From the NCBI GenBank assembly GCA_021405325.1, contig QWII01000153.1, positions 1 through 17,371 on the forward strand: a DNA stretch of 17,371 nt, given 5' to 3'. The notes under the pieces are model-generated. The model worked only from the letters and a program-made list of their open reading frames with translations, made no database searches and was not told where the DNA came from. Made by a program: the position numbers and the translations under genes. The number at the start of each line of letters is the position of its first letter. The first letter of the stretch is position 1. Below are positions 16,078-17,371 of the stretch, one piece after another. The DNA is from Caldilinea sp. CFX5 (lineage in GTDB: Bacteria > Chloroflexota > Anaerolineae > Caldilineales > Caldilineaceae).

Positions 16078-17371
16078 TTACTCTGGTAACGACACCAACT
16101 TCAACACATCCCCGCGCACAGGTGTCTTGGTGAACTGCCCGTCTTGGGCGTGAACAATCATCGGCATCTGCTTCACCCGTAACAGGAAGTTAATACTGGT
16201 CTTGATCGACGCGTTGACCGGCGGCGCCAGACGAAAGCGTTGGAGGATGGTCGCCAACGTGAGCTTCATTTCGAGCATGGCAAATTGCGCACCGATGCAC
16301 AGGCGCGGCCCGGCGCTAAAGGGGATGTATTCATAGGGCGACGGCTTGAGCGTAAACCAGCGCTGCGGGAGAAAGCGATCCGGTTCTTCATAGATGGCGG
16401 GCAGGCGGTGGGTCATGTAATGGCTGATCATCACCGACGATTTGGCCGCAACGTGATAGCCATCCATGACAAAGGGTTCCTGGGCGGTGCGCATGATATA
16501 GGCGAGGGGTGGGAACAAGCGCAGCGCTTCGTTGATGACCCCATCCAACAGCCGCAGGTCGCCCAGTTGATCCAGCCGGGGCGGCGCACCGCCCAAATGC
16601 GTATCGAGTTCAGCATACAACGCTTGCGCTACCTCCGGGTGCTGGCTCAACAAAAAGAGCGCCCACGACAGGGCATTGGCGCTCGTTTCATGTCCCGCCA
16701 GGAAGAGGATCACGGCGTTGGCGATCACTTCCTCGTCACGATTGCCGGAGACGTACCACATGACGACCTTGTCGCCCTTCTTGATCGTCTTCCCGCGCAG
16801 CTCAACGTCTTCGAGCGCAGTGCGGCGCATATAGGCGAGCGGCGTTTGCCAGCGGATCGTCTCTGAGACGAGCGACGGTATCAGCGCCGGGTTCGCTTTC
16901 AGCTTTGCGTATTGCTCGGGAAACTTGTTGAGCGCGTACACGCTGCCGGTGATCGAGTTGCGCGTCGTGTCATTGCCGCCGACGATCAGCAGGATCAGGT
17001 TTCCGAGGAATTCCTGGCGCGGCATGTCCTTGGTGCTGTCGCCATGCGCGAGCATTGAGATCAGATCATTGCGCGGCGGCGCCGCGGCGCGCTCTTCCCA
17101 AAGCATGTTGAAATACTGCAGGCACTCCATCAGCTCCGCGCGGCGCTGCTCGTCACTCTCGACGATGCCTTGCCCGGGCGCAGCAGTCGCGACGTCCGAC
17201 CAGCGCGTGAGCTTGCGGCGATCTTCCCAGGGGAAATCGAACAAGGTCGCCAACATCTGCGTCGTCAGTTCGATCGAGATCTTATCGACCCAGTTGAACA
17301 CCTCGCCGCGCGGCACGGCGTCGAGCAGTGCGCCGGCGCGTTCGCGGATGATCGGCTCCAAGTGCGCGAGA
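16078..17371 (-). CDS. Cytochrome P450, chimeric: CYP153-like N-part joined to another P450's C-part (5' end off right edge)
   Basis: The frame enters from beyond base 17371 (LAH-LEPIIRERAG is internal sequence; the TTG at 17361 is a leucine, not a start). Residues are numbered from that TTG. Residues 1-208 follow CYP153 alkane-hydroxylase-like sequence: VDKISIELTTQMLATLFDFP, RRKLTRWSDVATA, I-helix GGNDTTRNS (128-136), ExxR as SETIRW (166-171), DKVVMWYVSGNRDEEVI. Instead of the CYP153 haem end, a second I-helix follows at once (ILFLAGHETSANALSWAL, AGHET 222-226). Then come a second ExxR (NEALRLFPP, Glu278-Arg281), a PDRFLPQRW meander and the haem-ligand loop PFSAGPRLCIGAQFAM with Cys355. The protein thus carries I-helix and ExxR twice and the haem cysteine once. 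The join falls at DEEVIAN (about 16717-16737). It cannot fold as a normal P450 of either type. It may be a real recombinant or an assembly join. The C-terminal half alone is a clear P450. Confidence 0.85.
   Translation of the reverse strand, partial: LAHLEPIIRERAGALLDAVPRGEVFNWVDKISIELTTQMLATLFDFPWEDRRKLTRWSDVATAAPGQGIVESDEQRRAELMECLQYFNMLWEERAAAPPRNDLISMLAHGDSTKDMPRQEFLGNLILLIVGGNDTTRNSITGSVYALNKFPEQYAKLKANPALIPSLVSETIRWQTPLAYMRRTALEDVELRGKTIKKGDKVVMWYVSGNRDEEVIANAVILFLAGHETSANALSWALFLLSQHPEVAQALYAELDTHLGGAPPRLDQLGDLRLLDGVINEALRLFPPLAYIMRTAQEPFVMDGYHVAAKSSVMISHYMTHRLPAIYEEPDRFLPQRWFTLKPSPYEYIPFSAGPRLCIGAQFAMLEMKLTLATILQRFRLAPPVNASIKTSINFLLRVKQMPMIVHAQDGQFTKTPVRGDVLKLVSLPE

Follow-up and report, generated by a model that had tools for sequence, protein, structure and literature searches.

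CYP153 cytochromes P450, of which CYP153A7 (PDB 3rwl) is an example, are alkane hydroxylases according to their PDB names. They have the motif GGNDTT in common with the first half of the open reading frame described here and carry a haem-binding FGFGIHRC region, which this half, a fragment, lacks. The P450s of about 450-480 aa that surround the database protein P0121 present the same AGHETS and EALR motifs as the second half of the frame (residues 216-430), with a near-identical haem loop. Chimeric contigs from short-read metagenomes form a further point of comparison, since here likewise parts of what are probably two genomes meet at a short, presumably exact word near a contig end. A review (PMC7299287) describes how k-mer sets that link genomes, through closely related species in a sample or through sequencing errors, can yield contigs of this kind. 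Unlike other chimeric contigs, the window (the whole stretch of 17,371 bp that was analysed) has its join in frame within two genes of the same superfamily, so that it resembles a fusion gene. The frame is very probably (roughly 0.92) a metagenome assembly chimera, in which two P450 genes were joined at a short shared k-mer near the contig end.

Architecture of the frame and position of the join

The features of the frame are listed in Table 1. The sequence marks GGNDTT and AGHETS, ExxR and GPRLCIG represent the I-helix, the K-helix and the haem loop of P450s, respectively. An earlier note on this DNA had read a doubled I-helix motif, a doubled ExxR motif and a single haem cysteine from the translation; the motifs were located by script. 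Instead of one complete P450 domain (PF00067), the frame thus contains the I-helix motif and ExxR twice each and the haem loop once. The first half matches positions 234-367 of the Pfam p450 profile and the second half positions 260-447, so that about 100 profile positions are present twice, while the second P450 lacks its start and the first its end. In NCBIfam, no family scored above its cut-off for these P450s. The first half resembles CYP153 over the I-helix and K-helix region and has no haem loop with a proximal cysteine of its own, the sole haem motif being that of the other half. When aligned with its kin, its sequence switches ahead of their FGFGIHRC site.

Table 1. Features of the P450 frame at the contig end (window positions; aa, residue of the frame).
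Feature	Position	Strand	Basis
P450 frame (430 aa and stop codon) running through the join and open at its 5' side, where the contig stops	16078..17371	-	
First I-helix motif GGNDTT (CYP153 half), aa 131	16963..16980	-	motif script
First ExxR motif ETIR (candidate), aa 170	16852..16863	-	motif script
Second I-helix motif AGHETS (second P450), aa 225	16681..16698	-	motif script
Second ExxR motif EALR (candidate), aa 281	16519..16530	-	motif script
Haem-binding motif GPRLCIG, aa 354	16291..16311	-	motif script
Internal piece of a CYP153-type gene from Alphaproteobacteria, judged foreign to this organism; ends just past the first ExxR, without the haem-binding part	16735..17371	-	identity, CYP153A7 match, tetranucleotides
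Join, putative shared word	16714..16734	-	EVIANA in both parent proteins; control word lengths
3' half of the second P450, I-helix motif to C-terminus including the haem motif; first ~255 codons missing	16078..16713	-	92% identity to P0121, family distribution, tetranucleotide distance

A script run on the 16078-17371 frame places the start of DEEVIANA at aa 212 (16737), and residue comparison sets the switch point inside codons 214-219 (EVIANA, 16714-16731). Five CYP153-type parents share 7-10 identities with the window per 10-residue block over aa 151-210 and 0 over aa 221-270. For P0121 the corresponding counts are 0-1 over aa 151-210 and 9-10 over aa 221-290, with 4-10 per block over aa 221-290 for the more distant second-half parents P0122-P0125. 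Proteins of both families contain the hexapeptide, in the context NRDEEVIANAN in P0004, P0010 and P0011 and TEAEVIANAV in P0121. These comparisons bear out three statements of the earlier note, namely that the CYP153 part stops before its haem region, that a different P450 starts just ahead of its own I-helix (P0121 carries EVIANA immediately before its I-helix motif), and that the join lies in frame at DEEVIAN, a peptide possible in both parents. The two EVIANA sites are not equivalent: in the CYP153-type gene the peptide follows ExxR, about 80 residues from the C-terminus, and in the second P450 it immediately precedes the I-helix motif. In the joined product the I-helix-to-ExxR stretch occurs twice and the CYP153 haem loop is lost. 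As the reading frames of the two genes coincide over EVIANA, a frame that stays open past the join is automatic and says nothing on function.

The shared DNA word would be 18 nt long if the EVIANA codons of the parents match those of the window (codons 214-219), 19 nt if the parent of the second P450 has GCG ahead of them, and at most 21 nt (codons 213-219) if it has GAG. These lengths are derived from the DNA of the window and the proteins of the parents, because the nearest genes reached were 75% identical for the CYP153-type gene and at most 47% for the second P450. As a control, the longest shared words measured 8-14 nt in 220 pairs, which are not independent, formed between 10 Chloroflexota P450 loci and 22 CYP153-type sequences, namely 12 genes and 10 half-gene matches, with some genomes contributing more than one. 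Beyond the join, the contig continues for 637-657 bp.

Taxonomic affinity of the two halves

From sequence comparison, residues 1-211 can be firmly assigned to a CYP153-type gene from Alphaproteobacteria. In a protein search that scored the 7996 candidates sharing most words and listed the best 120, they match full-length P450s, some 423 aa long, at identities of up to 94%. All 20 organism-named proteins among these 120 matches belong to Pseudomonadota (18 to Alphaproteobacteria, two labelled only 'Proteobacteria'). The named kin among the matches listed include Terricaulis, Vitreimonas, Hyphomonadaceae, Caulobacterales and other Alphaproteobacteria, the nearest being 92% identical (Terricaulis and Hyphomonadaceae). 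A search of solved structures aligns residues 135-345 of CYP153A7 (PDB 3rwl_A) with residues 1-211 at E 4.3e-95; the top match is named only 'Cytochrome P450', and CYP153A7 is among the best, which agrees with the CYP153-like N-terminal part proposed in the earlier note. In a set of 385 genomes from the alphaproteobacterial class, 51 contain a match to a full-length relative, P0006, at E <= 1e-100, and the first half itself finds a match in one of 400 Chloroflexota genomes at E <= 1e-40. For the DNA of the CYP153 side, the best identity was 70% in the 385 genomes of the class (query P0006), 69% in two genomes of one order (that of G631) and 75% in 40 of another (that of G646), and three genomes of a further order (that of G642) gave no match at E <= 1e-100. 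A literature search found no paper pairing 'CYP153' with 'Terricaulis'.

The sole Chloroflexota match is an intact CYP153 relative of 443 aa, 71% identical (genome G162, locus L051, 1243-2574), whose flanks resemble a CoA transferase and an alcohol dehydrogenase as judged by reading the frames without a family search. It reflects either a transfer into Chloroflexota or a contaminated bin; such a gene is rare there, and it is whole. Another side observation concerns P0002 (736 aa, on a 96,671-bp contig), the top match by score for the first half, in which one frame holds two CYP153-type copies. Stretches between and within the copies read like a shifted frame, and Pfam finds two p450 stretches; this is perhaps a tandem pair with frameshifts, an architecture that differs from the chimera of the window.

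The second half comes from a different P450 family, probably of Chloroflexota origin, a phylum suggested by distant named kin and by the distribution of the family. Residues 216-430 are 92%, 89% and 88% identical to P0121, P0122 and P0123, full-length P450s of 474-476 aa; P0121 itself has 476 aa, and in the frame of the window CYP153 sequence stands in place of its first ~255 residues. Among the 120 matches listed, the organism-named kin are 37-53% identical, five of the seven being Chloroflexota, with one cyanobacterium and one ant. At E <= 1e-60, full-length P0121 matches 80 of 400 Chloroflexota genomes (best 405 bits) and one of 240 genomes of the alphaproteobacterial class (271 bits). The 400 genomes, from the phylum of G004, are counted as Chloroflexota because the record of locus L005 is Candidatus Roseilinea. 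Relatives of the second half at 44-47% identity also occur in two alphaproteobacterial and one gammaproteobacterial metagenome-assembled genomes. No close source gene emerged: a contig scan with the second half gave eight loci at no more than 46% identity, five of those genomes gave at most 47%, and full-length P0121 reached 45% at best in the 400 Chloroflexota genomes. Plasmid records gave 1240 matches, five of them at 60-80% identity and none higher, and the best-ranked rows show 46.6-48.6%, averaged over two pieces. Compared separately, as the earlier note had proposed, the two halves point to different phyla, firmly for the first and less firmly for the second, given its distant named kin.

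The main part of the contig leans towards Chloroflexota, to judge from a solute-binding protein gene (1419-3542), for which, with at most four candidates scored per genome, 20 of 251 Chloroflexota genomes (best 649.5 bits) and four of 240 genomes of the alphaproteobacterial class (best 531.6 bits) match at E <= 1e-120. In our reading, the second half of the frame (16078-16713) is native to this contig.

Base composition adds to the distinction between the halves. The outer 634 bp (16738-17371) have a tetranucleotide distance of 0.579, against a maximum of 0.551 in 108 overlapping windows of equal length from the rest of the contig, none of which reaches 0.579, although a test on a 634-bp segment of one gene is noisy; the other half (16081-16737) has a distance of 0.361, within the window's own range. 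The profile comparison that the earlier note had proposed thus singles out the outer segment. Together with the CYP153 identity, this leads us to judge the segment foreign, as the same note had suspected for about 16737-17371. Codon usage was considered as evidence for two origins and rejected. The leucine count noted previously holds after the join (11 of 31 codons TTR), but before it the count is 3 of 24 rather than 2 of 22, and the difference is weak (Fisher p = 0.067). The mean codon log-likelihoods relative to the other genes of the window do not separate the halves either (-1.020 and -1.029). The GC3 of the CYP153 half (0.840) is above that of all 12 other window genes tested (0.457-0.746), and that of the second half (0.749) is also just above this range.

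Origin of the join

The same architecture was sought elsewhere. The chimera is listed once in the protein database, with one member from one 17,371-bp contig. A full-length search (7996 candidates scored) returned 1067 proteins at E <= 1e-100, and of the best 120 listed, none of the 119 others covers more than 64% of the chimera. Among 243 other proteins retrieved, 165 give a match at E <= 1e-3 with each half. No protein combines at least 45% identity to the first half with at least 45% to the second, and the order of best matches seen in the chimera does not recur. The 122 close CYP153 kin are at most 24% identical to the second half, and the identity of 42 relatives of the second P450 to the first half does not exceed 35%. 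The doubled I-helix homologues by which the earlier note would have recognised a genuine gene are accordingly missing from this set, in which no independent genome or assembly repeats the architecture (0 of 243).

Of the origins put forward in that note, an assembler joining two genomes at a shared k-mer fits best, the halves having different taxonomic distributions. Parts of different origin and composition are indicated by family distribution and tetranucleotides, and codon tests give no separation. The assembler would have been following a P450 gene on a contig probably from Chloroflexota when it crossed into alphaproteobacterial CYP153-type reads at an 18-21 nt word coding for EVIANA and present in both genes, and the contig would then have ended about 0.65 kb further on. 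Such a false join would be in frame automatically, with no need for selection, as EVIANA is natural to both families in its frame. We infer that the join was made by software and not by the cell, by way of a k-mer shared across phyla. Several points stand against this: 18-21 nt is short for assemblers that finish at long k, the statement of the review (PMC7299287) concerns related species and not different phyla, codon usage gives no separation of the halves, and the second half is placed in its phylum by distant named kin.

A real fusion in a Chloroflexota cell, where illegitimate recombination at the word of about 20 nt linked a recently acquired alphaproteobacterial CYP153 gene to a resident P450 and so produced a pseudogene or a protein some 560 aa long, is unlikely. 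The frame does stay open, and the intact relative in one of 400 Chloroflexota genomes indicates that CYP153-type genes can occur in this phylum. Yet the transfer would have to be very recent, as proteins of the alphaproteobacterial group still share up to 94% identity with the donor half, and the recombination would have used some 20 nt at non-equivalent places. No second example is found among the 243 proteins, and the product would have no CYP153 haem region and would pair two I-helix motifs with one haem motif. Less likely still is a laboratory chimera, that is, a PCR or multiple-displacement-amplification product that joined both DNAs before sequencing. Its sequence signature would be the same as that of an assembler join, and one imperfect inverted repeat (88%) has a 16-nt arm at 16689-16704, at a distance of 10 nt from the putative shared word, although such short pairs often arise by chance; such a product would moreover need local dominance in order to be assembled. 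The other origin named in the earlier note, homologous deletion between two P450 genes, considered here for neighbouring genes of one genome, is the least probable of all and is not upheld. Adjacent CYP153-type genes do exist in Alphaproteobacteria (G525 and G629, for example, each have a row of four), but the halves differ in taxonomic distribution, and the deletion fits poorly because the join points do not correspond within the P450 fold: one gene is cut after ExxR, the other ahead of its I-helix motif.

Consequences and other genes of the contig

With an assembly chimera as the preferred reading, positions from about 16731 to 17371 are to be excluded from statements on this organism and the contig trimmed at about 16731. 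In the annotation, the frame is better described as a P450 gene of which the 3' part is present and which continues past the reliable end of the contig. The case also carries a warning on data quality: an in-frame join within one superfamily gives a single open frame that scores as P450 in Pfam and is listed as one protein. Metagenome mining for CYP153 enzymes could mistake the chimera for a CYP153 in Chloroflexota. If the fusion were real, it would represent a very recent gene fusion across phyla.

Elsewhere in the window, 3-3623 encodes a peptide-type ABC transporter, consisting of the solute-binding protein, a permease and a second permease (OppC_N) that is cut at the other end of the contig. 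At 6922-8811, a sigma-70-like factor with DUF6596 is followed by a YCII-domain protein, a pairing that is common. Finally, 12008-13491 holds an AbiEi/AbiEii-like pair, a type IV toxin-antitoxin by Pfam name, with a lower GC content of about 0.45-0.48; Pfam matches AbiEii (PF08843) at E 2.7e-19 and AbiEi_4 at E 2.1e-05, at the cut-off, and PADLOC reports AbiEi and AbiEii.
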